DNA from: Polyrhizophydium stewartii
Taxonomy: Eukaryota; Chytridiomycota; Chytridiomycetes; Rhizophydiales
DNA: 56,630 bases
Assembly (NCBI GenBank): GCA_027604665.1
Contig: JADGIZ010000007.1
Coordinates: 1 to 56,630, forward strand
Direction: 5' to 3'
Position numbers and translations under genes: made by a program. Below are positions 15,828-56,630 of this stretch, piece after piece. Every line of letters begins with the position of its first letter. Position 1 is the first letter of the stretch. The notes under the pieces were generated by a model. It had not been told where the DNA came from, ran no database searches, and saw nothing but the letters and a program-made list of their open reading frames with translations.

Positions 15828-15884
15828 GGGATCGAGCGAAACCGGATTCTCGATTTTCTGCGCCTTTTGGCGACACACCGAGCG
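15828..15884. promoter_or_regulatory. Compact bidirectional promoter, mL59-like / PPR
   Basis: Only 57 bp separate the start codons of the mL59-like gene (-) and the PPR gene (+), so transcription start sites and 5' leaders must overlap or lie inside the opposite gene. Such an arrangement should couple the two mitochondrial genes. No TATA-like element is visible. Confidence 0.4.
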
Positions 15885-20994: not shown

Positions 20995-21362
20995 GGCGCC
21001 GTCACGGCGATGCGGCGTACGCGGTTTGTGAGCGGCGCACGATGGCCATGTCCCGCGCAGCGAGTTTGCGGCGAGGCTTACCGAGCTCGTTGTACGACGA
21101 GCAACATGTCCCCATCGCGGGCGGCGTTGCGCCTCTCGGCCAATGGCGGGCGGCGTCGGCTCGGGTGATGTCTGCGGCGACGATTATAGCTGCTCCTGCC
21201 GGTGCTGCTGCCGGTGCCGGTGGATGCGGTGGTGGCGGAGGGCTCGCTGTTGGCCGTGGAGCGGCGAAACGGACGCGCCGCGATCCGAGCGCGAGGCACC
21301 CGTGGCCCCGGCCTCCACGAGCACTTCCCCCTCAAAGCGCCCGCTCGGGCTCAGGCCGCCAG
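20995..21362. promoter_or_regulatory. Divergent region, kinase fragment / oxidoreductase
   Basis: The interval separates the kinase fragment (-) from the oxidoreductase (+). It should contain both promoters and possibly the missing 5' exon of the kinase. The oxidoreductase frame remains open through it from an ATG at 20874, but the encoded sequence is low-complexity and lies outside the family domain. Confidence 0.35.
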
Positions 21363-22511
21363 ATGTCGTTCCTCGGCCGCATCCACAAGGCGCTGGTGTA
21401 CGGCGCAGGCCCAAAGGACCCCGCGCCTGTGCGCATCGGCATCCTCGGCTGCGCCAACATCGCCCCCATGGCGTGCATCGGCCCGATGTCCCACCTGCCC
21501 GGCGGCACCGCGCACGCCGTCGCCGCCCGCGATGTGCAGCGAGCCAGGGCCTTCGCCGCAAAGCACCGAATCCCCGTCGTGCACGCCTCATACGACCAGC
21601 TGCTCGCGGACCCCGACGTCGACGCCGTCTTCATCCCGCTGCCCAACGGCCTGCACCACGTCTGGGCCATCAAGGCAATCGAGCACGGCAAGCATGTGCT
21701 GTGCGAGAAGCCGCTCACCGACACCGCAGAGCAGGCAAGAGCCATCCAGGCGGCGCTGCAGGCGCACGCACACGCCCACCCGGACCGCCCGCTCGTCTTC
21801 GCCGAGGCGTTCCACTACAAAATGCACCCGGCAACGCACTTTGTGCTTGACGTCGTGCGAGGCAGCGTCGATGGCTGGCAGCTGGGTCGAATCGAGTCCG
21901 TCGACACCTTGTTCTCTCTGCCAAACGCTGCGACGCCCGACTCGGACATCCGCCTCAACTTTGCCCTCGGCGGCGGCGCAACCATGGACGCAGGCTCGTA
22001 CGCCGTCTCAATGAGCCGCCTGATCGCCCAGACCGCCGCCGGCACGGCCGACCTCGATGCCTCGACGCCGATTGTGGAGAGTGCCCACATGCGTCCCTGG
22101 GACAAAGACCCCAAGATCGACATGGCCATGGAGGCAAAGCTGGTCTATCCGTCCGGAATACGCTCAACCGTCTCCTCTGCCTTCCGCGCGGGAATCATCT
22201 CTTTCAAGGCCGAGCTCGCCATAGTTGCCGAACACGGCAAGCTGACCTTCTCCAACTTCATTGCGCCATTTGCCTTCCACTCCGTAGAGCTTGCCAAGAA
22301 GGATGGCACCAGGCTATCCAAGAAAGTCTACGGCGACGAGGGGCAGACTACATACTATTACCAAATGCGCGCGTTCCTCAACGCTATCCGGAACGACCCA
22401 GCTTCTGCTGCCAGCAGCCCCGTCTCTCTGACAACCATTGTGGACTCTATCATCAACATGCAAACTATCGACTCCATCTACAGAGCAGCTGGCTTTCCGC
22501 TGCGACCATGA
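21363..22511 (+). CDS. NAD(P)-dependent oxidoreductase, Gfo/Idh/MocA family (dihydrodiol / xylose dehydrogenase-like)
   Basis: The product is 382 residues without introns from the ATG at 21363 (MSFLGRIHKALVYGAG), a length normal for the family. The N-terminal Rossmann fold begins VRIGILGCANIAP, with the nucleotide-binding turn. The family signature GKHVLCEKPLT, with the catalytic lysine of the EKP motif, is intact, and a C-terminal alpha/beta substrate domain follows (LNFALGGGATMDAGSYAV). The nearest characterised relatives are trans-1,2-dihydrobenzene-1,2-diol dehydrogenase and fungal D-xylose 1-dehydrogenase, which oxidise sugars or diols with NADP. The true substrate cannot be read from sequence. 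It is convergent with the P4-ATPase gene, 294 bp away. Confidence 0.9.
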   Translation: MSFLGRIHKALVYGAGPKDPAPVRIGILGCANIAPMACIGPMSHLPGGTAHAVAARDVQRARAFAAKHRIPVVHASYDQLLADPDVDAVFIPLPNGLHHVWAIKAIEHGKHVLCEKPLTDTAEQARAIQAALQAHAHAHPDRPLVFAEAFHYKMHPATHFVLDVVRGSVDGWQLGRIESVDTLFSLPNAATPDSDIRLNFALGGGATMDAGSYAVSMSRLIAQTAAGTADLDASTPIVESAHMRPWDKDPKIDMAMEAKLVYPSGIRSTVSSAFRAGIISFKAELAIVAEHGKLTFSNFIAPFAFHSVELAKKDGTRLSKKVYGDEGQTTYYYQMRAFLNAIRNDPASAASSPVSLTTIVDSIINMQTIDSIYRAAGFPLRP

Positions 22512-34982: not shown

Positions 34983-37900
34983 TCATTTGCGGCTCGGTCG
35001 CCGCTGCAGATCGTCGGTCATGGCAAACTCGAGGCGGAACTGCAGCACGTCACCCTGCTCGTTGCCAGTGTAGAGAACGTAATCGTCGTTTGCGACCTGG
35101 AGGCAGGTGCACGGCGACCGTAGTGGAAACATGGCGCACACGTGCCCTACGATGCCGTCGATTTGGGTGCCGATCATGAGTGCCTGCTGCGCTATGGTCA
35201 GTCGCCTGCGGTAAGAGACCGTCGAGCCGAGCTGCGCACTCTTCGCGCGTTGATCGCGATCTTCCGTGCCGTCGCCCTTGAGCTCCGCCCCGCCTTGCTC
35301 TTCTGAATCCCGGGCCGTATCCCGTGCGTTCTCGCTCGACGCCGCGCCGTCAAGACCCGCGTGCGTCCAGATGTCGATCGGCCTGCCAATATCGCTCGCG
35401 CTCATGGCACGGATGGCGTGCGGAGGGCCCCGGATGTCCCAAACGCGCACCATCAGATCTGTCGCGATCGTGACGATAAAGCTGGGGTCGTGCAGAAAGT
35501 CCCACTGCACTACTCGCGCGTTGTCATGCTTGAGCATGCACACGCGGTGGCGCCTCTGTCCTGCGCTGGCGGCAAGCACGACGACGACGCCGATAATCCG
35601 CTTCTCGAGGCTTGTCTTGCCGACAAAGCTTTCGCCCAGCTGCACGCCCGAGTAGCCAACGTACGTGCCCGTACGGTCGCGTTTGCACGAGTCCAGCTGC
35701 ATCATGTCGCCCAGTGATCCGCCATACGACCAAATCTCGCCGTCGACAAAGAGAGTTGTTTTGGTGACGTACATGACGCGTGGGACCTCGCCAGGCATGT
35801 GGTGCCACGAGAGCCCAAGCACCGTCTCGTGCCCGCGCGTCTCGAAGCGGCGCAGCTCCTGTCCCGTCTCTGAGTCAAGAACAATGACGGTGAAGTCGTT
35901 TGCGACCAGAAACTCGCGGCGCGACGACATTTGCGGCCGGGAGGGCAACACCGTAATAAAACGTTGGAAAAGCGGCGTCGGATCATATGTCAAGAACATG
36001 CTTGCGCGGCCCATGATCTTCCATGCAGAGAGCTGACCATCGATCATCCACGTGTAAAGCGTCAAGCCTGTGTCGTCAATCCGGTTCTTGACCAGAATTG
36101 CATCGCGCAGCGCGTGCTTGTGCGAAATGCGCAAGACTTCCTCGGCTTCGTGCACGTTCCATATGATGGCTGATGTGCCCGCGGTGACGACCGCAAACCC
36201 TGTAGTCTGGCTGAGCCGGCAAGACGTCAAGTCCTCTGCAACAAAGACTTCATGCACCGGCGCAAGCTTCTTAAGCGAGTCGGAAACCGCCCACGAGACG
36301 AGGCGGCCGTCGCGCGAAACCGAAATGGCCTCGACACCGTTTTGCTGGCGCTTGCTGAATGGCAGGACTGCATTGATCGGCGCCGAGTGCCGCAGCGGGA
36401 TCGAAAGCTCAACGTGTTGTTTTTGTGTTCCGCCAGTCTCCATGCGCAGACTCGAGTGGCTGTCGCAAGTCGAGAGTCGCGTTCCTGCGGCCAAAAAGAA
36501 ACGCTCTTTACCCTTGGACGTTGCGATGCACATTTGGCTCAAAACCGTCTTTTCGCCGATCCAAAGCCGCTTGAAGATGTGACCGCTCTTGGTGCTCGCG
36601 ACGCCCAGCGTGCTTGACGTGGAGCCAAAGTATAGCATGGACTCGTCAATGGACACGCTAATGCAGGAGACCTTGATGTCCGAGGGCATGCGCACAAGCG
36701 CAACGCGCGAATGCGTATCAATCTTCCATATCATTATGTCGCCGCCTGCGAGCACAACGGCAAGAAGGTCTTTTCCAATCGAAAACTGCCCTCTGGACGC
36801 ATCTGACGCGCCGTCTTCGACAAAGCGGCAAATCTCGCGCATGGTCTTTGCAGAGAGGACAGCAATGTGCCGCCGCTTGTCGATTGTCAGAAGCGCGATT
36901 TTGTGGCCGTCCATCGAGCGCGCGACAACAGAGGCGACTTTCCCGCCTTTGATGGCAGGCATCAATGCGGTGCTCGCGCGGGGCGGCAAGCCGTTCCCTG
37001 TGATCACGCCATTCGCATCGTCCATTGCATTTCCGGTCGCATCGAGCGTGCGCCCGGACGCAAAGTGAACAAACTGCAGCGACTTGTGAGGGCCGCGCTG
37101 CCAAACACCGCCAGCGTCCTCGGAGAAGAAAAGCGGCCCGCCAGTGTACACGTTTTCGATGCGTGAAAACGGCATGCCTGTCTCGGTTGTGAAGACGCAA
37201 ATGTGTGAGTTGCGGGTTCCAAAGGCAACCAGTTCCGAGTGGTTGAGGCTAAAGCAGCATTCGGTCGCGCTGTCGGCACCAATGGACGCCGCGAGCAGTG
37301 TCTTGACAAAGAGAAACGTGTCAATGTTCCAGCACTTGACGGTTGCGTCCGATGAGACCGAGACGCAGCACTTTCCAAGCGCGCCAACAACAATGACGCC
37401 GACGTAGATGATCTCAGTCATGTGAGCACCCAGCGGTACCATCTCCAGCTGGTCCTCGGCAAGCGACAGGCAGTTGAGGAACGGCTCGCGAGTGGCCTGC
37501 TTCTTATAGGACTCGAGAGCCTCCTCGCGCACATACATGCAAAAGCCGTTCGGCAAGCTCAGCGCGAGTGAATACGCAAGCTTCGGATACGTCGCCAGGT
37601 TGTGGCTGTATCGCTCGACAAAGAAACTATAGTCGGTCAGTCGCGAGCGGTCTGCAGAGTTTTCCGAGTCGACTGCGAGCTTGACCGCCTCCGAGAAATA
37701 GCCGGGCAGCTCATGTGCGAGGTTTGACGTGAAAACAGCCGAGACATATCCGATCGAGCACATGATGCGGGCAATCTCCGATATCGGTCGCTTCGCGCGC
37801 AGCTGATGGAAGCTGATGTCGGCGGCACGAATCTCGTTGTTTCCGAGCCAAGAGAGGTCGCCTGCCGGATCGCAGATGGAGATGTAGTACGACGCGAGCA

Positions 37901-39700
37901 GGTGGTGGAAGCGCTCCGACTCGCTCGGCAGGCGGAGATACCTGCGCCGTATTGCCGCTGTGAACTGCTCATGGAAGACGATGACATAGCCCGTGCTCGT
38001 CTTGATGATGTAGTCCTCAATGGACTCAAAAAGCAGATTCCATGCGGCCAGATCGAGCTTCAGCAGCCCCACAAGCTCCATCTCGCGTAGGCCGTTACGA
38101 GCAAAGCTGAGCAGGCTGAAGAACAAGCGAATGATCTCGACACCATGCTTCCGCTCGATGCGTTCAAACACCTGCTCGAACACCAGCCATGTCGTCTCGA
38201 GGTGATAATCTTCAAACACAAAATGACCGTTGGACATGCTCTGCTGCGCCTCTTTGAGCACCACACGCAGATATAGCGGGCTCTCGGATGCCTTCTGGTC
38301 GAGCAAGTAGTTGACCGAGCGCGCGTCGACCCGTAGCCTCAAAGCCTTGCCGCGGTCCGCAATGATCTTGCGCTTGTCATCGTCAGTGAGCGCGAGAAGC
38401 GGGATCTTGGTGGCGTCCTTATATTTGGACTGCAGGCGCGGCATGATCTGATCGTCTGCTGCGCTCATTATCCACGATATGCTGCTGCAGACCTCGCTGC
38501 CAAGCTCGGACGGCGGCGGCAGCCACCACAGATCGTCGCGCTGGCCTTGGCTGTTTACCATGCGGTCAATCCCGTCTATAATGACGGCGACCTTGTTGCC
38601 GTAAAATACAACCTCGTTCAGCAGCGCAACAAAGTACTCCTTGAGCTTGACTGATTCCGTCGGCAGCCTATGAGACTGAATGCGAAGCTGAGCAAAGAGC
38701 TTGATGCAGAAGCGCTGGATCATCGAGTCGACGTTGAACGAACCCGCCCATGACCGCACAAAGTTGTACAAAACAACGACGTCGCGCTTCGGAAACTCAT
38801 GGCACAAGTGTGACAGCAGCGCAGTCTTGCCCATGCCCGAGGCGCCGTAGATCAGGATGGCCGACGAAAGTGTGCTCCGCTTTTCTTGTACAAAAGGCGT
38901 TCCGCTTGAGCAGACGGCCTCAATGATGGGCCGCGTGATGCTCTCGCGACCGGAGAAGCTGTCCGAGTCTTGCGAGCCCAGCGCTGCGCCGCTACTGCCG
39001 CGACGGCGCTGCTTCACAAACTCCAGAATGGCCATAATCAGGTCGTTGCGCACGCGCTCGCCGAGCTTCTCAAGGCCGCCCATTTGCACCTCACGGCCGA
39101 CGACTCGCGTGAAGTAGCCCGGGTAATGCGGCACGCAGCGATCTGGGAACCGCCGAAGCATACTCATGCGCAGCTGGTCGAGGCGCACCTTCTCCTCGAC
39201 GTCCTCTGGCTCGTACTGTGCGCGGAAGCTTTTTGGAACGGACCGAGCAAAGTTTGGGTCGCGGAAATAGAACATGCATGAGCGCAGCCCCTTGTGAATA
39301 TACCGGTTGTCATCCTGCGTCAGAGCATACTCGACCTCGAGCTCGGCCATTGTCTTTGGCTTCTCAATCAGCGATGTCAATGGCGTATGCGCGGCAAAGA
39401 TGTGAGGCGGCAAATCACGGCGATGCAGCAACGGGCCGAGCTTGGACCCAAAGATGCCCACGAAAAGCGCGGCGCGTTTGATATTGGTCAAGGCGGCCTG
39501 CAGGTGGCTTGCAGGGTCAACTGCAACTGCCTCAGTGCCACCGCCCGCGGGGTTGTACTTGAGATCCACAAAGTGGAGATCGATGTGGCGATACGCCATG
39601 TCATTCAGCAGGCCGGGGAAGACGTGCTGGAAGAGGAATCTGCGCTCGTTCTCGGCGTCGCTCGAAGAGCACACATAGACTGTGAAATGATGGCTTGCTT
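34983..39700 (-). other. NPHP3/NWD-like module: DUF4062-like, NACHT, winged helix and WD40 propeller
   Basis: These domains lie in the same uninterrupted exon as the dynein C-terminal domain. A DUF4062-like start (FTVYVCSSSDAENERRFLF, VFPGLLNDMAYRHIDLHFVD) matches the N-terminal domain of nephrocystin-3, NWD1 and TEP1-type proteins. The NACHT P-loop is ILIYGASGMGKTALLSHL (about 38810-38860), its Walker B VAVIIDGIDRM (about 38560-38600), and SESPLYLRVVLKEA is a family marker. From about 37430 to the stop are WD-type repeats, for example CCVSVSSDATVKCWNID, VVLAGGDIMIWKID, AISVSRDGRLVSWAV and IVTIATDLMVRVWDIRG, enough for one or two propellers. NACHT ATPases switch between inactive and oligomeric states. 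Confidence 0.88.
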
Positions 39701-42700
39701 CGGAGATATTCCGATCGAGCGAGTCAGACATGGAGTTGAGGCTGTGCATGTAGTTGAGATCCACATATCCGCGTCGCAGATACTCAGGCGTTGTTTTCCC
39801 CGAGACATCCACCAGCATCTGACAGCCTTGATGATGTAGTAGCTCGGGAGCCACACAGGATTGGACCTTGAGGCTGCAGATCTGATTCTGCCGCGAGCCA
39901 TCCTCAAGAAGCTCGGTCGTCCCGCCCTTCTCTTCAGAGACGCACGCCATGCAGCCAACCTCATACACCGGCGGTTTGGGTGGTGCCGGGGCAGCGGCCC
40001 GCTCTGGTGTTGACGGCGGTGCCGGCTTGAGCAACGGACGCTTGCTGCTCGTCCCAGAAAACCCGCGGCCACCGTCTGAGTCGAGCAAGTGGGTCGACAC
40101 AGGGATGAGCGAGCCGCGATACGGCGCGGGATCCTTGAGATACTGCGGGCGGACCATAAAGAGCGGCAAGCTGTCGGGTTTCCCGGCATCGAGCGCCTCG
40201 ACTTTTCCGTCCACCATACGCACGCCTTCCATGTGAAACCCCGCAAGCACCGCTGCAATGCCGTAGCGGGCCGAGAGATCCGCAATCTTGCGCCTGTCGA
40301 GCTCGGCAAGGTCAATCTGCTCGAATATGAGCTCGACCGTACTGATGCCTGCCTGCGCCTTGGAGGCAAATATCTGGCGCAGTCCCTGGAGCAGTGCGCG
40401 GAGTGAGAATGGCAGACCCGCGTGGATGAGCCATGGTTGGCCAAGCATGATCCACTTGTCGAGGAACTTGATACGCCTGCCAATGTCGTCCATCCACATG
40501 TCGAGTGTGGCGCTAGTGGGATGCGCGCGGCGGACCCACGACTGGAGAACCTTGTTGTTGGTCACCGCATCGAGTGTTTTTCTGGCTGAGGCGGTGGGGT
40601 AGCCGTTTGAAAAGGAGGTCAGGAGCACGCGCAGGTTCATGCGCACCCGCCGCAACAGCCGGAGGAAGTTGTTTGCCTCCTCGAGTAAGAAGCACTTTGT
40701 CTGGTGACTCTCGGGCGAGTTCATGTTCTCGTAGATGAGCCGCAGGTTGATTGTGGTCGGCAGTGTGTTCAGGTACTGGCCAATCTTGTGCTTGATCATG
40801 CGGTCGGACGCAAGCTGAGCCGCAGCGGGCTGGATGGCGTCGAGAATCAGAGCCAGCTTGCGACATAGGTCGAGCGATATGGCGTCGATATCAACGGCAT
40901 TTCCACTCCGGTGCACACGCAGGTTCTTTGGCGTAAACATGAATGGCCGCGACTGCGCCAGGAAGCTCACAAAGTTGTCTCGAGACATCTTCTCGAGCGG
41001 CATGCCGTTTGCCGCGACAGAGGCATCAAAAGTGCGCACAGCCTCGCTCCAAAGTGACGCCAGCCGTTCATAGTCCTGCGGCGATCGCGCTTCAGGTGCG
41101 TAGATTGCATCGAGCAGGACGCGCTTCAGAGTCTCGAGGGGGAGCTTTCGCCGTATGGCCGTCGCGTAAGCGCGCAAAGAGAGCTTGAGATCAATGTCAT
41201 CAAAGCTCATGAAATCAGGGAACGCTGTCTCACTGCGGCGCATCAGCGACACCAAGCCAAAGTGGAACTTGAGCAGCGTCGCGAGCCACGGGCGGAATAG
41301 CTCGTCGATGTGTGCCTCGTTGCGCTGCAGTTTGTGCAAGACGAGCCTGCGTGGGCAGCTGGATGTCAGAATAACATGAGATGGGCAGTGCTCGGCAACA
41401 CAATAGATACTTACCATGAGTCCAAATCCTCCTCGTCGCAGATGCAGTGGGCATCGCTGAACAGCCACAGCGGCAGCCTGTATGACAAGGACGTCATGCC
41501 AACTATCCAAATCTTGAACCCGGAAGACGGCATCTTGGACAGCTGGTGGATCTTGTCGAGCAGACCAATCCAGAACGAGTCGATCACAATGAGCACCCAT
41601 GCGTCGTTCTCTGCCGCGAACTTGATCTTTTGGATCCAGCGATCGCCTATGGTTTGTTTGGAGGAGCTTCAGCAATTGATTTCAAAGTTCGGTTTCTATA
41701 AATGCTTACCCTGCTTATCCGCCTCATTGACGATCGAGAGCTGAAGGTGAGACTCCTCGTATGTCTCGCTGAGGGCAACAATGCCGCGAACAGCCTCGCG
41801 AGGCGACACGGACAGTAGAAGCACCATTGAGAAGGAGCTGTCTTGTGCGACATCGAGGTATCTGGCCGGCATCCGCGCATCGTTTGTCCACACACCCAGA
41901 TCCTGGAGCACCTCTCGCATGCTTTCATCGACAAACTGCGGCAGCGCCATGCTGATGCAGCTCAGTGGTCAGCTTGGCGGCATGGAAGCCCAAAGACAGG
42001 GTGTTCCGCTTACATCTGCACCAGAAGTCGCTGGAATGGCGTCATGCGGCGCTCAAAAATGTCGGCGAGAGGCCCAGATGCGAGTGTCGTGGGCCTGCGC
42101 TCAGTGGCCATCAGCCCTTCGAGAACCTGCACAAACGTCGACCGATCCTCGAGTGTCTGCAGAAACTTTGTGTGCAGCCACTACATGACAAGCTAAAGTG
42201 AGCGCGGCGATTGGTGACAATCGTCGTTTCCAGGACGCCTTGCAGGCGGATGTTTACCTTGGAGAATTCGAAGGGATCACCCAGCTCGCAGCGCTTCTGG
42301 ATGAGCGTGCTAATAATCTGGTCGTCCTTCTTGGCGATGATACCGTAATAGCGCATCCGAACCATGGCGATCGCAGCAAACAACGGCACACGATCTGCTT
42401 GGGCAAGCGCGCGGCCAAGCGCATTGGCAGTTCGGATTGTGAGGTCATCGACAATGGCCTCGATTTCACGGCGCTCCAGATGGCCCGAGCCGGAGAGGCG
42501 AAGGTGTTCGGAGATACTTTGCTTGAAACAGTCGACCAGGATCCGTGCAGAAAAGCAGTATGTGGGGTTGACAAGCACGAGCCGCCGCATGACGCTCCAG
42601 ATGTCCATCGCGTACCCAATGACCTTGTTAAACGGCACGTACAGCGGCGCAACGTCTACCTCAAACTCCTCGCGCCTGCGACGCAGCTCATGTGTCTCTG

Positions 42701-45700
42701 CGTTGCGGCTCTGGAACAGGATGATGTCGTGGACAAGCTCCTCCTCGACTGACTGGCGCGTCTTGGTAAATTCTATCAGCGCCGAGAACCATTCGTTCAG
42801 GATGTCTGTTTGCGTCTCGAGCCGACGCCCTTGCCACACCAATCGCTGTCAGCACTTCCGGAGACGCTATATCAGCACAAGCCGCGGACTCACGAATGTC
42901 AATGCGCTGAGCGTGGAAAGCAGGCTTTGAGAAGGACAAGAGACTGTCGAGCAGCACCGCTCGCATTGACTCGTCTGTGTACTCGAAATATAGACGCGAG
43001 AAAGGCGGTTCCATGTCAAAAAGGATATCAAACGTTGTGCACACAAGAATCTTGGCGTCTGCGCGCCCGACGAGGTTTGGCAACTCGCGGGCGGCGGCGT
43101 GCCGAGCAGCGCGGAACCGAACAATTTCCCCATGAATATCGGGGTCGACCCCGACATTTTTGATGAGCACGAGCCCCGCGGTTTTGACGTGCTGCTTCAA
43201 CTTAGCCGGCAGCTCCTCATCGAGAGCGTCGATGACAGTTGCGCCGCACACAAATTCTGAGAGCTCGTCCAAAAGCACCTGGGCCATACCACTCGAGTCA
43301 ATAAGCAGCATGTCGGACGTGGTATTGCGCAGCAACATGGCGTTGGTAAGCATCTGCTCCGTCTCGGTGACCGTCCAGAACTCCTTGAGCTTTGGAAAAT
43401 GCGCCGAAAACACCTCGCGCCGGTCGCGCATGAGATGGTGCTCCCCGATTGACGTGACCCACTTTGCGCTGGCCTCGTTGCGCTCGTCATTCGTCATCGA
43501 GGGCAGAAATGCGTGCGCGCTTGCAAGCAGAAGCGAATCGCCGCGCAGGGTCGAGTGCTGCTTTTTCAATTCGGAGATCTGCGTCTCGATCTTGTTGCAC
43601 AGCGTCTTGAGCGCTTTGATGAACCGCACTTGGAACTGCACGTGCTTGCCCATTTGCAAGCCGCGGTAGTATGCATGCACAATATTGAGGTACTCTGCAA
43701 TGGTCCTGAACATGGAGAACGACTCGGGCAAAACGCGCTTGGGGATCTTTGGCGGGCCAAGAGCATGGGCGTGGTCTGTGACAAAAGGAATGCTAGCACA
43801 CTCGATTGTGAGTGCCGTGTCGATGCGGTTGATGTGCTTCTTGACGCGCTCGATGCTGGGATGGAGAATGTGCAGCTTGGACGCCTTTTCGACAACGAGC
43901 TCATGCATGAACTTGGTTCCAAAGTTGTGTCCCGAAACAGACTTGACGCAAATAATGGCTTTCTTGAACCGCAGCGACGAGTTCTTTTGCATGCTTTGCT
44001 TGTACTGGCTGAGCGGCGTCGTGGGCGACGAAGCCGCGAGGGACTCTTGCATAAAGAGCTCTTCGGTAAAGTGCGCCTCCAGCGCCATGAAAATATCGTT
44101 GGAAAGCTCGAGAAAGATGAGCTCGCCTACGCGCTTGCTGATCTCGCTCTCGTTGCGGTCAAGGCGCAGGTATTCTGGCAGCTTTTTCATGAATGCGGCA
44201 GCGCGCTTGTGTGCCCTGTCGTCGACCACAGCAAAATTAGCACTTTAACACGATACAGCTTCTCAGCCATAGAATCCAGCGGCGCGACTCACTTGAGGCC
44301 AGAGAGCCCCTCCATCTCCTCGTCAAATCGCGATATTGCCTCGGGAACGCGCTCCTTGCGCAGAACGTGCAAGCGGCTGTAAAAGTCGCGCCAGTCAAGG
44401 CTTTTGGGGTACGTGAAGGCAACGCCCCATCCGTTCTCGTGCGATAGCCACTTCCAGATCTGCTGTTGCTTGGCTAGCTCGCACCACCTGCGCGACACGC
44501 GCGCAAGCTCGCACAGGCGTTTGAGACCCATGGATATCAAGATGCGGAAGCTGAGCGGACGTGGCAGAAGTCCAATGATGTCGACATACACGCGATGCAT
44601 CTCTTCCTCGACTTGTGACACAACGCTCTCGATTGAAACGGGATTTTCGTCCGTGATAAGCCGCTGGTTAGACTCGTCACCAATCTTGACTTGCCCCGCC
44701 GCTGCCGAGAACGAAAACGGGTCGTCAGACAGGCGCCGCTCAAACTCATCGATACCGCCGCCCCACGACACAATTTTGCATGACGCGTCGAGAAGCATGC
44801 CAAGGAGTGGATTCTTGACCAGACTTGGAATGTGCGGGATCACGTCTGCGGGGCTGCAGTCAAGCAGCTTCTTGTGGATTTGCTGTTTGCGACGGTTTGT
44901 TTATCAGCGTCCCCCACCAAAGCATATTCCCGCTCGCTTGGAGACGCCAGACGAGCTTACCTTGTACTTTTCAATGATGACCTCGAACGTCCAATATTCA
45001 GGAAGGTGCGAGTAAATACCACTCCATACTTGATCAAACTGCGCTTTCTTGATGTTGACCTCCTTCTGTGACTCTTCGACAATGTTGCCGATGCGTTCTT
45101 TCTTGGAGTAGTAGCCATGCAGCGATACAACAATATCACGCACGATAAACGCGCCGCGACACGCCTGGAACGGGCTGATTGCCGTTGAGAACACCATCTT
45201 GGAGTCTGCGGCGCATAAATGCGTCAGTTGACCGTCGTCTGCTGCAGCTCAGGCGCGATAACTGGGGGGGACGGCCCTCACATACCATAGAATGCCACGC
45301 GCTGGAATAACGGGTTTTCCGAGGTGTTTTTGATTAGTGTGGCGTTGGAGTTGGCGAGCGACGGAATGTCGACCGTCTTGAGCTGCTTGCGGGACACCAA
45401 ATCAGCAGCCACCCACAACGTGGCTTGAATATCGACAGACTTGCCTTCTGATAGACTGCGTCCGGATGCGAGTGTGCAGGGAGCTTGAGCAGTTTAAGCA
45501 GTGTCGACTTGGCTGCGCCGGTGAAGCTGCCGCCGTCCTTGAGCTCCATGAGCTCGATGATGAACGGCAGGGTGATGGACTCGATGGCGGCTCTGATGTC
45601 TTCGAGCGAGGCCGCCGAGTCGCTCAGGTCCTTGGACATGCCCTGCTTAATGGTGGCGAGCTTGGACAGCTCGAGCTGGTATTCTGCATGCGCTTTGAAC

Positions 45701-48700
45701 ACGTCTGGGTCCGTAAACACGACGCCGCCGTCTTCACTGTGGAACGCCTGCTGAATCCACTGGCTCTCGGTGACGTGGTCCGAACTCGCGTGATTGAAGA
45801 TGCTCTCTGGCGCAAAGATTTCCTTGATGAGCGTCATGCGGCCGCTCAGCTCGCGCTTCTGCAACAGCAGCGATGCCTCGCGCTCGCGCATGGCGCCACT
45901 AAACTGCCGCAACTGCTCAAGCTCCTGCTCCTCGACGTGGTTGTCGACCGTCTCAGATACCATGCGCGAAAACACCATCTTGGCATCCGCGAGCGCCGAG
46001 TCTGTCTGCAGCCGGCTGCGTGTCTCGCGGCAGTAGCGAGACATGTTGCGCAGCCACATGCACAGTGCCTTGACCGCCGTGCCGACTTTTGCCGACTTGT
46101 CGATCTGGAAGCCCGGATAGTCGACAATCTTGCGCAGCTTCTCAAGTTTCGAGTCGCTAATGAGCGTGTAGTCGAACTGCGTGATGCGCTGTAGGAACGT
46201 GTGCGAGGAGAGTAGCTTGCGTGCCTCGCCCCAGCCACCTGGTTTGTCAAAGAGGATGCACAGCCCATCTGCGACGAGGGCGAGCAGCGGCGGTGGGATC
46301 ACAAACGTCTTGAGCTCCTCGAGGTCGTTTTTCTTGATGGCATGAAGTCGCTCAATGGCCTCTTCAAAGGCGCTCTTGGCCTCCGTCAGCCCTGCATTGG
46401 CGATGGTCGCTTCGCGCTCGACCATGACGCGCAAGGCCGTTTCGCGTCGCTCTCGCATAATATTCGTCAAGCGGACCATCTCCTGCTCGTTGGTTTCGAT
46501 GGCAATCTTGAGCCCAGAGAGCTCGTTTGAGATGCGCTCGAGCTGCAGCGGCAGCTCCACAAGCTCCTGCCTGCCTTCCTCGACCAGCCGCTCTATGCGG
46601 TCCTTGAGGCGCCGTGTCCGCCTCAGGCACGTGGTGAACTCGGCGATCTGCTGGCGCAAGTTGCTGTCCTGCGCAGCCGCATGGCGGCTGAACCAGAGAA
46701 TATACTTTGCGAACTCGATGGTCGACAGAGAGCGCCGTCTGCGCGCCGGGTCGCGGATCGTCTCGCGCGAATTCAGGTAGATCTTGACGACAAGGTGGCT
46801 GAGCATCTCAATCTCGTCGGCAAACGACTTGGTCTCCTCGAACACAAGCATGAACGTGCGGTACGAGAGCTGCAGCAAGTCGTTCTCAGAGTACTCGCGG
46901 TAGATGTCGACGGTACTGCGCGAGATGGTGCGCGGGAAACGCAGCATGCTCTGGTGCGTCGCAACGTCCGTCGCATCGACTCGTAGGATAATGCACACGT
47001 TCTCCTGCACGCGTTGTGCCCAGTACCGCGTGATCTCGAGTGGGTTCGGCTGCCTGCCAGAGCCGTCGGCAAAGATCTCGCGCTGGAACGACTGCGAAAA
47101 GTCGGAGCGTGCGGACGTGGCCACGTCCCGACGCATGCGGAACTGGTGCGAGATCTTGGTCATCAAGTCCTCGTACTCCTTGGGCGGCCACAGATGCCTG
47201 CTGCGAGCGCCGTCGTAGACCGCATGCAGGTCGCCCCAAACTTCTGCCGGCACATGCACCCCGGGCATGAGCGTGATGCAAACCGCCACGCGCTTCTCTG
47301 CCAGCCCGGCCTCGGTGACGTGCTTGCGGATAAACGCTCGCCAGCTCTCGAGCCCAACCTCGCCGCGGAAAGAGATCTCGCGGAGGGGCAGGTTGCGTGC
47401 CGTCGTGACCATGCGCACAACATCGAGTGAGATGTCCAGGCCCGGTCGGCAGACAAGGACCGCATGTAGATGCCGCTCGGCGGCGAACACGCGATCCAGG
47501 CGAGCAAAGTGCGCTGCGCAGTCCGGAAAGACGGTGATGTCGTCGCTGAAGGTGTCTGCAACGTTGGGCATTTTGGCGCGAACTGCGCGGATGAGCTCGT
47601 TCAGGTGTTCGTCGTCGACCACGTCCATCTCGTGACGTGTGAGCACTGGGGTGCCGACGCTGCCCTCGTGCTGCACCGCGTCTCGCTCGACGCTGGCATC
47701 GCTAAATAGGGCCTGTTCGCTCGTGTCGTCCATGTGGAAGTACTTGCGCGCGATTTGGCGCAGGCAGTCTTCGAAGATGTTCAGGTCACCGTACTTGATG
47801 CGGTCCTCAAACACGCGACGGGTCTCGTGGAGCCAGAGCGTGAACAGGGACTCGTTACCGGCAAAGCACGACGGCGCTACTCGCAGGAATCCTTCAAAAA
47901 CTTTCTCGAGGTCGTGCGACGAGAAGATATAGAAGGGGCCGTGGCTGGAGAGGACGAGACGCCGTTTGAGCAAATGAAGCATGTCGAGCGTCGAGTTGAC
48001 GGCCGAGTACATGCGCGATTGCACGTTCTCTGCGTTCGAGAATGCCATGAACTCTTCAACGCGGCGATAAAAGTGCACCATGGTCGCATCCTCGAAAACA
48101 TCGGTCTCGTTGAAGAACACGAGCGCAAAGTGGCGCATGAGCCGCGGCGGAGCGACGACGACCGAGTTGCGCAGCAGGTCACACAGCGCGAAAATGCCGA
48201 CCTTGCGCACGCGGCGCAGCGTCTGTGGCGTGCACCAGTACGCGCCTTGATCGACAAAGAAGCGCAGAAACTCCCACATTGTGCGCGAGCCCTCGGCGTT
48301 TGGCGACGGCAGATGCAGGTCGTCGACAAAGATCAGTAGCGAGCTTGAATTGACGGGCACGTACATGTCGTGCTCGGAGGCGGACGCGCTGTCGTCGGCA
48401 ACCAGGACCTTGTGAAAGTGCGCCGTGAGCTCAGAGACGTCCGACGCCGGCAGCAGCGGCACAGCGTGGCCGATGGTGTTGTATCGGTCCTGTGTGCACA
48501 GGTCCAACATGATATCTGTCGCAACGGACGTCTTACGCGAACCGATCTCGCCAATCAGCATAACGTGCTTCTCGTGCCGCAGAAGTAGCGAAATGACTTC
48601 TCTCTGTCGCGCCAGCACGCGCGATGATAACAGCCCGGCGCCAGAAAGCGCATCGAGCATGTTGAACCACGTCGCTGACACGGGGTCAAGCTTGAGGTCA

Positions 48701-51700
48701 AAAACAGAAATGTCGATGCGGTCTGCGAGCACTGACGCGAGGCGCGAGCTCGAGCGAGAAACCTTGATGAGTCGCGAGAAAATGCTCTGGAAGGCAGCGC
48801 GGTGCTCGGTGCCGATCGATGCGCCAAACGACCAGATGATGGCGTAGTGAAACATGTCCTCGATGACATCCACGATCGTCATGTGCGAGAAGGGCCGTGC
48901 CGACTTGGACCGCGACGCGGCCGCGCGGCCGTGTTCCATCAACAAGCACTCGAGAATATCCAGCACGCCGTTGAAAACAACAGGGATGCTCGCTTTGATC
49001 CCGCAGTCTTCGACAAACACAATGATGCTCTCCATGAACGACGAGAAGCAGCCCTCGATTTGGATCTGCATGGTGGCAAACTGGGTAACCTCATTTCCAC
49101 GGTCGATCCAGCGTCGCTCAAACTCGCCGAGCCACGACTGCAGCCGCACACGCCAGCTCCATTCGTTGCGCACAAAAACAACGTTGAAACGGCCGACAAA
49201 GCCTGCCGAGGCGTTGTCAAGGTTGTCAGTCTCGATGGCCACCAGGACGTTCCCGCCGAGAACCACGCGCTTCCCGTTGGACAGACACAGTGCGCCGCCC
49301 TCGTCCTTTTGCAACATGCTCGAGACCGAGTCTGCCCACGCCGCCTCGAGCGGGCTGTCAAAGACAAGCCAGTGCCGTTTGGTAGTGCGCTGCGCCGCAT
49401 CCACAATGGACTCGATCACGCCGCGCTGGTACCCCGTCGATTCCTCGAATCCGAAGAGGAACGACGGGGGAAGAGCGCGCGGATTCACGACGTGAATCTG
49501 CGTACCAAGCAGAGCCGCCACACTGCGAATCAGGCTTGATTTCCCGACACTCATCTTGCCGAGAACAATCGTGTGCTGGCCGTGCTCGACAATCTGCTCG
49601 AATTGGCCGATCGTGCGTGATACCAGCTGCTGCATCGAAGCTGGCCGGATCGCAGCGACTTTCTCCGCAAGTGACGCTGAGGCTGAAGCCACCATCTCGG
49701 CATCGGCTGCAGCCTCTGCGTCGGTGCGGTCGGCGACCCCAAAAACGATGCACACGAGATTCGCGAAAATGGGCAAATCGTCGAAGAGCAGTTTCGGTCG
49801 GATATACGAGTGGATCGCATACAACACGGCATTTGTCTCGTCGGGGACGATTCCTGCAACGTAAAGAAGCAGCGCACTGTGTCAGCCAATCGTGCGATTT
49901 TCTGACAGATGGCCTGACGCAGACCCGCCTTGGTTGCGCGCCATCTCGGCAAGCCGGATGACGATGCGCGTGGTGCGCAGGCTAAAGTCGTAGTGCGCCT
50001 GGCGAGACAGCTGGTCGCCGGCCATGGTGAACAGAGCTGCGATCTTGCACGCAAGCTCATGTGCGTCTCCGAATGCAGCCATGTGCAGCAGAGCCGACGC
50101 AATCGAGGCGATGTCTGGCGCAGCGAGCGCAACGAGACGGGTTTGCGCACGCAGCGAGGCGACAAAGTCCGGCCGGGCAAGGGAGCCCGGACTCACGGTT
50201 GCAAAAAAGCACACGCTTGTTGCGGGCTGCAATTTGATGATGCGGCCGAGATAGGAGACAGACGTTGCGTCCTTGCGCTCTGACAGGTCGCGCAGAGTTG
50301 TGATGGCCTGCCAGACGGTGCCGAGCGCGCTCTCGTCGAGCTTGTCAAGATTGGTCATGAGCAAATAGCAGCCTGTCATGGCCATGCCGGTCATGAGCCG
50401 CGTGAGCACGTGTGGCGAGACGCCTTGGCTGCAGTTGAAGAAGACGGCAAAGCGGCCCAATGCGCGAGCAAAGTCCTTGAAGATCTCGGTCTTGCCCACC
50501 GACACAGGCCCATACGCGGTCACTCCCATCTTGAGCTCGAGTGCGCTCCACGCGGCCGCGTGACACTTTTCTGACACATTGCTCCAGCACAGCCGCGCGC
50601 CGGCACCGAGGTACTCGTATCCGTAGACGCTGTGCTGCAGATACTGTCGCACGGTCACACCCTCGCTCTCCTCTGAAAAGTAGTACCGCAGGCCGCGCAG
50701 CCACTCGAATGCGGTCGCGTCGTGCACGCGCTTATCGTGGAGCTCCTGGCCCCAATCGCGGTAATTGAGCTCGATTGCGATCAGCGACTTCCAGCAGTTG
50801 ACGACGGCGGCGCTGCTGTCGCCCTGACGGATGAGTGCGGCGAGGCGTCCAATGTTGTCGCGCGAGCGGCCGACAAACTCTGAGATGGATGGCGCCGTGT
50901 CGTCCTCGATGCACGCCTGCAGCTCGGCAGTGCGCAGGGTCTGGAACGCGACTTGTGCAATCTGGATGGGAGTGCTGCGCACCATCTTTTCGTAAATAAC
51001 TTTCCAGCTCTGGTGGACCTCCTCAAACTTGAGCTGCGCCATGCGCGAGACCAGGAGCTTGCGCAGCGTCGCCTGCGACTCGGCTTCGACTTTGGCCAGC
51101 CACTGCTCGACGCCAAGCCCACGTGTCGGGATTGGGTTTGCGAACTGGACGGCCTCGCCCTCGGGCGAGCGCACGCCTGTGACGACGTAGTCGCGGTCGG
51201 CATCGTTGGTGTAGATGAGCTCGCTGAAGCAAAAGTATCTGCCGGCGGGATCCAAGTCAGCATGGCAGGTGCAGTGGGCATCGCGTTGCGCAAATCAGCT
51301 TGAACTCACCGTGGGAGCTGGTGCTGAACCGTCGACGGCTCCTTTGCGATCGAAACGAGCTCGAGCAGCTCATCGTCCGATACGAAAAAGAGTCGTGGGA
51401 AGACGAGCCTCTTGTTGTCAAGCCAGCCCTGGACATCGTCGATGACTCGGCGCAGGCCGTTGCGGATATCGGCGACTGACGCGGGCAGATCCGGATGCAG
51501 CTCAATCAGGGCCGAAAATAGCTCGCACTTTTGCACGTTGGCGATGATAACGCGGTAACCCGTCTCAAAGACGCGAAAGCGGCGCAGCTCGACCGAGAGC
51601 TGCAAGCGCACCTCCTCGGACTCGAAGAAGCCGTGCACATTGATCATGAGCGGCTGCATCTGCTCCCACTCGCGCATTGCCACGGCCGCGGCTTGCAGCC

Positions 51701-54700
51701 GTGCCTCGGTCTCACGCAGCTGCGCAATGTACTTTTCCATTCCCTTGGACGAGATCATCATCCCGACCGTTAGCAGGTCGGACTCGATCGTGCTGATGTA
51801 GTTGGAGAAGCTCTTGACGACTGTCAGGCCGAAGCGGTTGTTGGACTCGAGCTCGATGGGCATGCTGTAGTACCGCTCGTTGATTTCCTTGATGACGTTG
51901 GTGATGGCGTGCTCCTTGCCCGCGGCCGTTTCGATGGGGTCGATGCGAGCCGATACAACCGCAAGGCTGCTGCGACCCAAACGCGCGGCAATATCGTCCA
52001 GACAGTTGCGACCCGATTCAAAGTCAAACTGCAGAACTTGGCGGATCAGCACCCAGTGATCGTCCTGGAAAATGGGGTTCTTGAGCTTGGCCAGCAGCGG
52101 CGATTCGACGAGTGTGAACATGCGCAGGTCCTCGTGCGTCAACTTGACGATGGGAGAATTGACCAGCGGAGAGTCCTCGACAACGCGCGAGAGCTCTGCC
52201 GACGTGGTGGCGATCTCCTGCATGTCCAAGAGCGCGACGGGCTGCGAGCGCCAGTGCGCCAGCCGCTCGCGCATGCGAAGAAGGCTGCCAATCAGCAATC
52301 TGCGCGACGCCATCTTCTCCATAACAGCCTCGATCTCGGGCATTCCCTGCACATTCTCAAGGCACTCGATCTTGGCACGGATCGCTTGGGCGACGCTCGC
52401 GGCATCCGCGATCTTGGACTGCATTTGGGTGAGTGCGGCTGGAGCATCTGCAATCTCCTCGAGATCGCCGAGCGGCGAGTGTGTGCTGCGGTGGTGTGTG
52501 ACCGAGAGCCTGCCCGTGACCGACTGCGACGCTGCGTGCCCTGCTCGAAGCGACACACGCCGGGCTTGGCTATTGCGCAGCTGCTGCGCGGTTGCGGATG
52601 ATTCGACCGAGACGGATCCTGATCGGCTGCACGACGAGCCGATGGACCGCCGCCGCCCGCCATCAGTCAGATCTGTCCCTTGCATTGACATTGATCGCGG
52701 CGTGCGCGCACGGCCCGAAATCGATGAGCGTCGTCCCGGCGTCGGAAGCCCGTCGTCGTTATCGACGGCGACTGTGATGTCTGGTGCGATTGAATGGACA
52801 TCTGCATCGCTCACATGGCGGACAGGCGTCGGCATCACCTCGGGCGGCCGGGAACTTTTTGAAGACTGTATCCCGCTTTCTGCGGTGGGCTCCAGGTCGG
52901 TGCCATTCCGTCTGATGTTTGGAATCTGCGAGACTAAAGTACTGCATGTCAGCGTTGGGTCAGCTCGAAAGTCGTCAAGCCTATACTTGAGCTCACCGCC
53001 GCCGAGACGAGTTCGGGATGCTACAGCATCGCTGTCGTGGGAGATTTCGAGGTTGGAGAGCGCCTGGAACTCGCGCATGATGTCGTCGGTCGAGCCTGAG
53101 ATCACGTCCAACGAGTGGTACGGCACCACGGACGAGCGACGTGAGTGACCTGGTTCTACGTGCGTCTGGCTCTGAGGGATGGCGAGCTGATGCATCTGAA
53201 GAAGCGCTTGCGGGCCATGCGTGGCAATCGAGTCGCTCATCAACACTGGATTCCGGACGGGCCGCATGAACATTTGGTCCGCACTGGCGTCGAGTGCCTT
53301 CCAGTGCGCCATAAACGCATCGATTTCGCCCGAGAGCTCTGTGGTGAGGCGAGCAGCGGCGTTGCTGATATCGCGACTGCGCGTTGCCAGAAAGTCAAAG
53401 AACTCGTCGCGGGTGCGGTGCGCATCGAGCAGGCGAGAAAACTCGTCGTCGGCTTGGGTCCAGCGGTGCTCGTCCAAAAAGTCCTTGAGCCGGTCGAGCC
53501 ATGCGGTCTGGTCGCGCACCCAGTCGGACGCAGAAACCATCTCTCGCAGAGCGAGCGTCGCCTCGCGCGTCTCGGAGTACGTTGTGGGTGGCCCGAGCAC
53601 AAAGAAGGACTTGCAGCGGGCAATGACGGCGTCGGCGCAGGCAACGATGCTGCGGCTCACGCCTCGGTAGATGTCTGCCGTGGTGCGCTTTGCCCAAGCG
53701 TCGAGCTGCGCTTGCAGAGAAGCATGGCTGACACGGCACACGCCGCGTACCGTCGTTGAGAGGCTGAAGCGCGCATACCGCTGCACAGCCTGCACGTCAG
53801 CGAGCGACCGGAGGTTGAGCTCGATATACTCGTCAAGCGATGCCGTGAGCACGGCAATCGTCGATGCGCGCGTGACTCGGGGCACGATCTGGGCCGAGAT
53901 GGTGTCGAGATGCGACTGGCAGCCGTCGATGCTGTCCTCAACCAAGTCGCGGAATAGCATCTCAACAAAGCTGTGATTGGTCGGCCGACTCGGTAGAACG
54001 CCACCGGGCAGCACGCTCGGCACTGGCCGCGCCCATGCAGCAAGGCGCGCACCGAGATGCGCTCGCAGATCCGAGAGCGGCACATCGTACTCGAGAGTAT
54101 ATCCACTAGAGGATCCGTCTTGAGCGGCGTGTGCGCCAGAGCCCTTACTTCCGCAGGCATCACCGCCAGCGCTACGACTCGGCTCGATGCTGCGAATGTT
54201 AACTTGCAGGAGGACATGCAGTGCCCCGTGCTCGATTGCCCTGTAAGTTTCGGTGACGCACGAGCTCACGAGCGGCGACGCAAACGTGTCGGCCATGACG
54301 GTGACCATACGTCCGAGCCGGACGAACATGTCGGAACAAGGTTGGTGTCGCGCGGGCAACGGCGCGTTGGGGATTGCTAGCGTCATTTCCTCGAGCGTGG
54401 CCGGGTCGGCCTCGAAGGCGCGAGCACTCCGCTGTGTCAGCGTGAGATTGAGAGGCACGGGTCCATCGGGCTCGCGGATTCCAAAGAGGCCGAGTAGCTG
54501 ACGGAATGCGGCGTGCACGAGCATTGGGAGCCGGTCGCGCAACAGCACGTCAAAGTCAATTTGCAACCACTCGCACATGTCCAGGAAGTCCGCGGGACCA
54601 AACGTGACGCCGTCGGGTGATTCCATAATGGGAACAATTTCGGCAGACTTGGGTTCGGATGTGAAGGGTGCCGGAGCGAGGGCGCCGCCTGAACCGACGC

Positions 54701-56630
54701 CGTGGTTTGCACCGTGCATTTGAATGGTTTGAGCTGCCGCTACAGCTGATGCGCTCGTGCCGCCTGTTGCCTTGTGGCCGTGGTGGTGGCGTCTGTGTTT
54801 GTGCCTATGGCGGCGATGCTTCCCATGCATCCCGTGCGATGGCGGCACGGCAATTGGCTGCTGAGGTTGGAGCTGGGTAGGCTCGCTTGCCGGAGCAGCG
54901 TCGTCCCGGCCGGATGCGGTTGATTGCATGAGCTCTGGAATCAGCAAGCGGCGTTTGGATGGATGGACACGCGAGACATGCGTCTTCATGGTGTCCAAGA
55001 GCGGCACTGAGAACAGATCGGCGATAGCGCCCCGCAAGCTCGACAGCACGTCGCGCACGGCCAAGGATGTGGCGAAATTGAGATGCGGCTCAATGTCATG
55101 AGCTAGCAGAATCGCTTGCACGTGCCCGCCGTCCTGATGCCCCTCGCGCACGGCAGACAAGATGGCCGAGACGCGGCTGTAGACTTCCCAGGTCTGGGGA
55201 CTTTGTGGAAGCGTTGGCACGAATGACCTGAAGTTCTGGTTATTAATAAGCAACGACTTGAGCTCCGAGACAACAAAGTCGTCGCGCAACTCGGCGTAAA
55301 TGGGCAAAAGCTGGCTAGTGAACACCTCTTGCTCAAGTAGCAGGCGCATTTGCTTCTCCTCGTCTTCAAAGTCGCCGGTGAAATCATCGTCCTCGTCCTC
55401 GTCCTCGCCGCCGATCAGAGTGCGCGGACGGCGTCGCACAGCTCGTAGTGAACGCGCGGCATGACTCGAGCGACGCCTTGGCAGCGACTTGGTCGCCCGG
55501 TCCGAGCCAATCTGTAGAGGCGCTGGAATACGAAGCACTGCGCTGCGTGTTTGCGCAAACACACGCTCGATATCGCGCTTTGGGAAAGATGGCAGTGAAG
55601 ACTCGACGACAGGTCGAATAATCTTGACGCATTCACTGACGGCGAGGTTAAACTCAAACTCTTCGCGGATAACCCTAGCAAGCTCAAGCTGCCAGCGCAG
55701 CGAGTCTAGGGATTCTCCGGGCAGTAGGATTTCGCTGATGAGCTTCGCAAAGACGAGCGGGCTAGAAGCCCGCTCGAGGGCGGCGGAGGCGGCAGAGCCA
55801 CTCGGCGGGAGCCATTTGACAAGGAAGCGGCGCGAGCAGTCGTCGTAGGCGATGACCTCGCAGGGCATCCACATCTGCGGAAGGTTGGTGCACTTGACCA
55901 GACATTCGAGCGACTCAAAGTACGTGCCGCGAGGCTCTTGCCAGAAGCGGGCGATACAAGCAAACCCCGAGCCTGGAGCTGCAGCGGCGATGCCGTTGAG
56001 CAGCTTTTGTGTGCGCTCGTGGTCGACAAACAGATCAATTGGGAAAAGGTTTCCGATGCGGCGGCGACGGCGCCTGTATCCCGCGGAGGCGGCGGTATTG
56101 AGGCGGGCTGCGAGGCCGGCGGACTGCGGACTGCGCGCAAAGGGCAATGTGCTGCGCTCTGCGACTTGGGCGTCTGGAATCGGGAGCTCATTCGATGTTT
56201 GATCAGGCAGGTCCTCGTACTCGTCGTCAGTGCCAGAGTCAGCGTCTGAGGCGACGCCGCTGGGCAACAGCGTGTCAGGATCAGGAGACTCTAGGTCGTC
56301 GTCGCTGGCGGGCATCTCGTCCTCCTCAGACAGGACGGTGAGGCCACCAGGAATTGAGGCTGCGCGCGAGCGCGCGGGTCTCGGCGAGCGAGACACGCGC
56401 AGGGAGGCATGCAGCCCGTCTGGCGGCTCTGCGGGCAGGGCGATGCGCGGCAGCTGCTGGAGGCGGCGGGCGGCGGGCGGAGTCGTCGGCGACGCGTCTC
56501 GCGGGCGTGGGGTCAGGCGGCGCGAGATGGCAAGCCGCGGGAGACGGTACTTTGCGAGCAGCGCGCGCGCGGGCTGCGGCGGCAGCGCGGGGCCGCGGCC
56601 GATGCGCGGGCGGGCGGGGCGACGTAACTG
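34983..56630 (-). CDS. Giant dynein heavy chain with stalk F-box and C-terminal DUF4062-NACHT-WD40 fusion (5' end beyond window)
   Basis: Exons: 56630(open)-51310, 51238-49925, 49876-45509, 45455-45286, 45205-44961, 44882-44293, 44215-42894, 42829-42258, 42180-42014, 41951-41710, 41646-41415, 41358-34983. All phases match; sum 6,973 codons including stop. Order: disordered N-terminus; dynein tail; linker (KRLVFPRLFFVSDDELLELV); AAA1 (GPVSVGKTE); AAA2 (GKMSVGKSS, HWLVFDSPLEAAW); AAA3 (GEIGSRKTS, LIFVDDLHLP); AAA4 without P-loop; stalk; microtubule-binding domain (IKKNDLEELKTFVIPPP); expanded stalk with F-box; AAA5; AAA6 (RMTPFQRLLVQ, AWVLIVIDSFW); dynein C-terminal domain (AGFHMEGVRMVDGK); DUF4062-like; NACHT; WD40. 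AAA1 has lost Walker B acids, so conventional motility is doubtful. The nearest named divergent group I know is DNHD1; orthology is untested. No in-frame ATG lies between 56300 and the edge, so the start is probably outside. Confidence 0.9.
43570..46345 (-). other. Stalk region: microtubule-binding domain followed by a roughly 600-residue insertion with an F-box
   Basis: The microtubule-binding domain (about 46345-46030) runs from IKKNDLEELKTFVIPPP to VKALCMWLRNMSRY, a clear dynein match. Ordinary dyneins return through a coiled coil of about 110-150 residues to AAA5. Here about 730 residues intervene before LCNKIETQISELKK and AAA5. Within them, exon 44882-44293 encodes an F-box: LPRPLSFRILISMGL, RLCELARVSRRWCELA, QQQIWKWLSHENGW, then DWRDFYSRLH. 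F-boxes recruit SKP1-cullin1 ubiquitin ligases. A preceding segment ending SPFQACRGAFIVRDIVVSLH weakly echoes the microtubule-binding domain and may be a duplicated copy. Confidence 0.75.
47400..51238 (-). other. Dynein ring AAA1-AAA4 with degenerate nucleotide sites
   Basis: In AAA1 the P-loop GPVSVGKTE (about 50485-50515) is intact. The Walker B position, normally CFDEFNRI, reads LLMTNLDKL (about 50340-50375), so Asp-Glu became Thr-Asn, and sensor I TMNPGYAGR reads TVSPGSLAR (Asn lost). AAA2 keeps a P-loop, GKMSVGKSS (about 49541-49575). AAA3 has GEIGSRKTS with Arg in place of the second Gly, but its Walker B VDDLHLP is canonical. In AAA4 the P-loop position reads CRPGLDISLDV, with no Lys. 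By family knowledge AAA1 hydrolysis drives dynein motility, so this ring is predicted to bind but not hydrolyse ATP at AAA1. Confidence 0.8.

Follow-up and report, generated by a model that had tools for sequence, protein, structure and literature searches.

A dynein heavy chain in one open frame with a TEP1-like DUF4062-NACHT-WD40 module in Rhizophydiales chytrids

Results

Contig JADGIZ010000007.1 of the chytrid Polyrhizophydium stewartii (assembly GCA_027604665.1; 12.86 Mb in 690 contigs) was analyzed over its whole length of 56,630 nucleotides, which we call the window (contig C7). Its minus strand carries one very long gene in which a divergent dynein heavy chain is followed, in the same reading frame, by a module of DUF4062, NACHT, and WD40 domains. 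Between positions 34983 and 41681 this strand reads 2,232 codons without a stop, and splicing extends the frame to 6,932 codons in 11 exons, with zero inner stops. An earlier reading of the letters alone (the original prediction) had rightly held that frame is kept through the upstream introns, but it counted eleven of them, where our enumeration of GT-AG joins, with one GC-AG join, gives 10. Candidate joins were scored against the Homolaphlyctis polyrhiza protein P0004 wherever that protein reaches; the first two introns were chosen by splice signals alone. Three joints are uncertain: the intron at 49918-49877, of 42 nt; the acceptor close to 51239; and the GC donor, at 45444. This donor opens a probable GC-AG intron (45444-45198) at which the joint aligns with the Homolaphlyctis protein (YQK-MVFST).

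The contig stops at 56630, and the 5′ end of the gene may be incomplete. The first methionine is model residue 106, which gives a predicted polypeptide of at least 6,827 amino acids (aa). An alignable block, IGNLFP, starts at residue 192, compared with residue 225 in the Gorgonomyces haynaldii protein, which has a methionine at its start, so little of the Polyrhizophydium protein seems to be missing. A pseudogene was considered and rejected, given the length of the open frame and its conservation.

The junction lies within the last exon, where the Dynein_C and NACHT matches share a frame that needs no splice join, as had been predicted; the peptides quoted in that prediction are found in the translation, and the frame has no stop between Dynein_C and NACHT. 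Each of the other five frames of this exon contains 32 to 84 stops, so the long open frame is not due to chance. Guanine-plus-cytosine content by codon position in the linker between the two halves (0.62/0.48/0.67) stays coding-like, compared with 0.61/0.40/0.75 before it and 0.60/0.38/0.74 after it. This linker had been described as short and Pro-rich. It is Pro-rich, but at ∼155 aa it is not short, and its second half is conserved, including a box, LED[G/S]xRxN, that is kept in all five sequences aligned, that of Polyrhizophydium included.

The same domain order had been suggested as something to look for in other zoosporic fungi. It recurs whole in Gorgonomyces haynaldii, where a single gene model of 6,161 aa (P0069) has precomputed domains that include DHC_N2, AAA_6, AAA_7, AAA_8, Dynein_C, NACHT, and WD40. 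The junction is also carried by proteins from Batrachochytrium dendrobatidis (P0003, a model that starts inside Dynein_C), Homolaphlyctis polyrhiza (P0004, which ends inside DUF4062), and an environmental contig (P0009). The four named fungi with the junction represent four genera, all of the order Rhizophydiales. These searches covered proteins of limited length (7,999, 7,999, and 2,809 candidates scored), and in the third, which found P0069, the matches listed reach only to E 1e-112. The submitted Polyrhizophydium protein in nr, HK105_007140 (P0002), matches the window exons at 100% over its residues 159 to 2147, the first piece spanning an intron. Its model starts only at residue 4655 of our spliced frame and omits 40073-39681 as an intron. 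That stretch is present in all four relatives, so the annotated intron is probably false, and we rejected it.

Judged by alignment, both halves are conserved between Polyrhizophydium and Gorgonomyces, with identities of 44% in DHC_N2, 46% in AAA1, 42% in AAA2, 29% in AAA3, 35% in AAA4, 40% in the stalk, 37% in the F-box region, and 26% in the Dynein_C region, followed by 40% in DUF4062, 36% in NACHT, and 35% in WD40. Taken together, the sequence evidence confirms the fusion as real and makes an assembly or model artifact unlikely. Coordinates are collected in Table 1.

Table 1. Features of the fusion gene in the window, in order of transcription
Feature	Position	Strand	Evidence or remark
Whole gene	34983..56630	-	11 exons, 5′ end at contig edge
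Exons 1-4	56630-51310, 51238-49919, 49876-45445, 45197-44961	-	
Exons 5-8	44882-44293, 44215-42894, 42829-42258, 42180-42014	-	
Exons 9-11	41951-41710, 41646-41415, 41346-34983	-	last exon 6.4 kb
DHC_N2 (dynein linker region), first part	51315..52325	-	PF08393 E 2e-41
DHC_N2, second part	51201-51052	-	alone just below cut-off
AAA1 (AAA_6)	49930..50625	-	PF12774 E 6.5e-48
AAA1 Walker A	50511-50488	-	GPVSVGKT, kept
AAA1 Walker B stretch	50367-50338	-	YLLMTNLDKL, without Asp-Glu
AAA2 Walker A	49534..49560	-	motif GKMSVGKSS
AAA3 (AAA_7)	48109..48609	-	PF12775 E 6e-19; Walker B FVDDL kept
AAA3 Walker A	48552-48526	-	GEIGSRKT, altered
AAA4 (AAA_8)	46834..47541	-	PF12780 E 4e-8; Walker A unrecognizable (CRPGLDIS)
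Stalk and microtubule-binding domain	46030..46443	-	PF12777 E 1.4e-7
F-box, in insert between stalk and AAA5	44445..44573	-	PF12937 E 8e-7, PF00646 E 2e-5, both over cut-off
AAA5 region (approximate limits)	42792..43428	-	PF12781 E 2e-4, below cut-off
Dynein C-terminal domain	40146..40832	-	PF18199 E 7e-19, over cut-off; profile positions 15-249 of 309
Linker, Pro-rich then conserved segment	39681..40145	-	five-sequence alignment
Linker box LED[G/S]xRxN	39917-39891 with neighbors	-	five-sequence alignment
DUF4062, TIR-like NADase-type	39012..39680	-	TEP1 chain 11gz_A E 2.3e-16
Catalytic Glu codon, putative	39338-39336	-	aligned to TEP1 E1008
NACHT NTPase	38526..38858	-	PF05729, 24.3 bits by protein (cut-off 26.7), 29 bits by DNA search, over cut-off
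Winged helix (HTH_NWD1-like), weak	38052..38177	-	PF25469 E 3e-4, below cut-off
WD40 propeller region	36108..37436	-	several beta-propeller models, best E 2e-12, each below own cut-off

Profiles of the dynein half pass their Pfam cut-offs in the expected order (DHC_N2, AAA_6, AAA_7, AAA_8, MT, lids, and Dynein_C), the end of the Dynein_C profile being unmatched. The stalk (model residues 3300 to 3560) is 68% identical to that of Homolaphlyctis and 40% identical to that of Gorgonomyces. In AAA1, the Walker B Asp-Glu pair is replaced by Thr-Asn in Polyrhizophydium and by Thr-His in Gorgonomyces, that is, in both species readable there. AAA_6 matches fall on 13 contigs of the Polyrhizophydium genome, and 11 of the 13 keep CFDEFNR; the two without it are the window gene and contig C45. 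The AAA4 Walker A motif is unrecognizable in three of three readable species, and the altered AAA3 Walker A of Polyrhizophydium has a counterpart in Homolaphlyctis (GEIGTRKT), with the canonical GPLGTGKT in Gorgonomyces. Batrachochytrium is unreadable at the AAA sites, its model beginning in Dynein_C. Dynein movement is driven by AAA1 hydrolysis; with the AAA1 Walker B acids missing, this half is probably not a walking motor.

Matches in the PDB favor axonemal chains: DNAH6 is best for the AAA1 exon (E 2e-57; cytoplasmic dyneins are weaker, at 6e-48 to 1e-43), DNAH2 for the exon after it (3.5e-60, then 8glv_Fm and DNAH6), and 8glv_JG, DNAH17, and DNAH1 for the tail exon, the dynein class not being settled by these matches. 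An AAA1 tree groups Polyrhizophydium with Gorgonomyces (100/99), and the stem of this pair is 3.78 changes per column long; the tree carries a warning of long branches meeting (C45), and no dynein class can be read from it.

Between the stalk and AAA5, an F-box passes its cut-off in each of the three readable species (Homolaphlyctis, 2.7e-8; Polyrhizophydium, 8e-7; Gorgonomyces, 2e-6). In Homolaphlyctis, AAA_9 begins 766 aa past the end of the MT match (profile position 209), compared with ∼176 aa from the same interpolated profile position in the dynein of contig C45, which gives an insert of roughly 590 aa before AAA5.

The DUF4062 domain, first of the C-terminal module, was identified by its match to TEP1 chain 11gz_A (no other PDB chain matched at E 0.01) and by a comparison of the module with a profile of four TEP1 sequences, which spans 1,136 columns with 21% of residues identical (E 7e-48). 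In the database search, the named eukaryotic relatives were TEP1, and P0010, a DUF4062-NACHT-WD40 protein of bacterial type, had a slightly better score (E 8e-25 versus 2e-21). We regard the module, originally labeled NPHP3/NWD-type, as TEP1-like, the best candidate among the comparisons made, which did not extend to NWD1 and NPHP3. In a DUF4062-NACHT tree of 58 of 64 rows (six, including Gorgonomyces P0069, were lost to length or match filters), the three fused rows group together (100/100), with the TEP1 and prokaryotic rows outside.

According to a preprint (PMC13174449), DUF4062 acts as a TIR-like NADase, both in bacteria and in TEP1; the activity depends on E1008, and R908 and R976 contribute, a change of either arginine to Ala lowering TEP1 activity. 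With the numbering of chain 11gz_A anchored by R908, R954, and R976, E1008 is the second Glu of TEMEV and aligns with AELEV in Polyrhizophydium. This putative catalytic Glu is kept in 4/4 fused copies and in the eight other aligned rows. The NACHT domain has Walker A GASGMGKT and Walker B IIDGIDRM, both motifs likewise kept in all four fused copies. The profile search proposed with the original prediction found Dynein_C over its cut-off in the translated protein, and the NACHT and WD40 models below their own. The region 36107-34986 probably continues the WD40 propeller; the Batrachochytrium copy has its strongest propeller match near the C terminus (residues 1707 to 1750 of 1876). The Pfam DUF4062 model is absent from the best 25 of 30 matches for the protein (P0001), and the Batrachochytrium copy does not reach its cut-off. 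With PADLOC there was a single weak match (E 0.0085); those with NCBIfam were to orc1/cdc6- and DnaA-type ATPases, below cut-off, and to one hypothetical-protein model.

Across the genome, a six-frame search with the NACHT profile, which is not very sensitive, found the window gene as the sole place. TROVE had no genomic match at E 1e-3, in a search positive in just 1 of 14 controls, and was likewise absent from those best 25 of 30 Pfam matches. The Vault model matched neither the genome nor any of the 14 controls and is uninformative, and the DUF4062 model missed even the window domain, so that its lack of genomic matches says nothing on other copies.

Several further observations concern the surroundings of these features. 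The tail (56630-52326, ∼1,430 aa) has no Pfam match at E 0.01 and no DHC_N1, and a block in it around CLVKCTNLPQMWMPCEVIAYDD resembles the Gorgonomyces N-terminal region. Contig C45 encodes a second divergent dynein heavy chain (minus strand, 9181-983) that has an AAA1 Walker A and no Walker B Asp-Glu (WLVLRNANAAP); it shares ∼23% identity with the window dynein in two short pieces, its best PDB match is DNAH7, and the contig ends ∼700 bases past its last Dynein_C match. On the plus strand of the window, open frames at 6298-9975, 15708-18764, and 20847-22511 correspond to Myb-like DNA-binding, PPR-repeat, and GFO/IDH/MocA oxidoreductase proteins.

Discussion

The explanation that we favor, with evenly balanced confidence, is that the gene encodes a nonmotile, microtubule-docking, dynein-derived scaffold that carries an NLR/TEP1-like switch, with NAD+ cleavage as the most likely output. 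A divergent axonemal-type heavy chain would have become a scaffold in which ring and stalk remain; AAA1 presumably cannot hydrolyze ATP without its Walker B acids, and the ring may bind microtubules without walking. The WD40 part would sense a ligand or partner, upon which NACHT would change its nucleotide state and cluster, and the adjoining DUF4062 domains would then act, most likely by cleaving NAD+. The F-box may connect the scaffold to a SKP1-cullin ubiquitin ligase, and the protein could reside at the flagellum or in the cytoplasm. The originally proposed axonemal or transport scaffold tied to an NLR-like nucleotide switch is thereby partly supported; ordinary motor activity on the axoneme or in transport is unlikely, given the loss of the AAA1 Walker B acids. 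The F-box insert and the NADase-type Glu had no place in that prediction.

Several points weigh against this explanation. Part of the dynein half diverges fast, with only 18% identity to Gorgonomyces in AAA5 and 23 to 31% in the tail; the match to AAA5 is weak, and P0004 showed none to AAA6 (Dynein_heavy), the short AAA6 exons of the window not having been scanned singly. The AAA2 and AAA3 motifs, of which the latter looks canonical in Gorgonomyces, may confer some ATPase activity. In the module, all four fused copies have another residue in place of TEP1 R908 and a Lys in place of R976. Finally, in the same preprint (PMC13174449), full-length human NWD1, NWD2, and NPHP3, in which DUF4062 also lies beside NACHT, showed no NADase activity.

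The last two points also speak for a rival reading, in which the fusion is real and the module is a structural tether or assembly platform, its WD40 and NACHT parts binding partners in the flagellum or at the basal body with no NADase activity; the preprint tested four human DUF4062-NACHT proteins in all, of which these three were inactive. We hold this reading to be credible, if tentative; the catalytic Glu and the NACHT Walker motifs, both retained in every fused copy, speak against it.

It is improbable that the dynein part is instead a slow or regulated motor that works through its AAA2 and AAA3 sites and is controlled by the module it carries, a reading close to the original prediction. 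The conserved stalk, the AAA2 Walker A, the AAA3 Walker B, and the canonical AAA3 of Gorgonomyces would suit such a motor; the Walker B acids of AAA1, the site whose hydrolysis drives dynein movement, are missing in both readable species, and AAA4 Walker A is beyond recognition in all three.

The frame could also be open and the mature proteins separate, through a second mRNA or start or through posttranslational cutting, as might be suggested by the submitted models, which are split in Polyrhizophydium (from residue 4655) and in Batrachochytrium (from inside Dynein_C). We consider this very improbable: no methionine is common to the five sequences from Dynein_C to the linker box, the second half of the linker is conserved, and Gorgonomyces is annotated as one gene, though posttranslational cutting may still occur. 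An assembly or gene-model artifact, to which the 5′ end at the contig edge and the omission in the P0002 model might point, is scarcely conceivable when the junction and the omitted stretch both recur in proteins of four other sources.

Within the favored explanation, a more specific and rather doubtful proposal is a new kind of innate-immune or stress switch, in which an NLR/TEP1-like, NAD-cleaving STAND protein would sit permanently on microtubules or the axoneme by way of a retired dynein, with the F-box serving ubiquitin signaling. If so, a zoospore could perceive an insult to its cytoskeleton or flagellum and, by draining its NAD+, shut itself down, and this would be, within the literature searched, the first NLR-type architecture reported in chytrids. 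Dyrka et al. (2014, PMC4986451) report no NLR hits in chytrids, and the main text of a 2026 atlas of the proteins of fungal flagella (PMC13358043) mentions neither NACHT nor a fusion nor Polyrhizophydium. The original prediction knew of no described dynein heavy chain with a NACHT or WD40 module, and no description of one with NACHT, WD40, or F-box was found in the literature searched, which excluded subscription papers and most preprints. The gene would also place the newly described DUF4062 enzymes in a second eukaryotic context, away from the vault, and exemplify a motor apparently turned scaffold, and it lets the placement of a NACHT-WD40 protein in the cell be tested. Batrachochytrium dendrobatidis is the amphibian chytrid; the junction in this species implies no role in disease.

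Four known systems bear comparison. Bacterial and archaeal DUF4062-NACHT proteins (with TPR or WD40) share the placement of DUF4062 beside NACHT at ∼21 to 26% identity; they lack a dynein and stand apart from the fused clade in the tree. Axonemal dynein heavy chains have DHC_N2, AAA1 to AAA4, stalk, and Dynein_C in the same order; unlike them, the fusion protein is without the AAA1 Walker B acids and AAA4 Walker A and has an F-box insert of ∼590 aa and an unmatched end of the C-terminal domain, followed by the linker and module. TEP1 (telomerase protein component 1, of the vault particle) has the order TROVE-DUF4062-NACHT-WD40, and the fusion protein is collinear with it from DUF4062 through NACHT and a helical region to WD40 and keeps the catalytic Glu; it differs in having no TROVE match, in not keeping R908, and in carrying a whole dynein heavy chain in front. 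Fungal NLRs include NACHT-WD40 proteins such as het-d/het-e, and like them the fusion protein places a putative N-terminal effector before NACHT and WD40; unlike theirs, its module is attached to a dynein.

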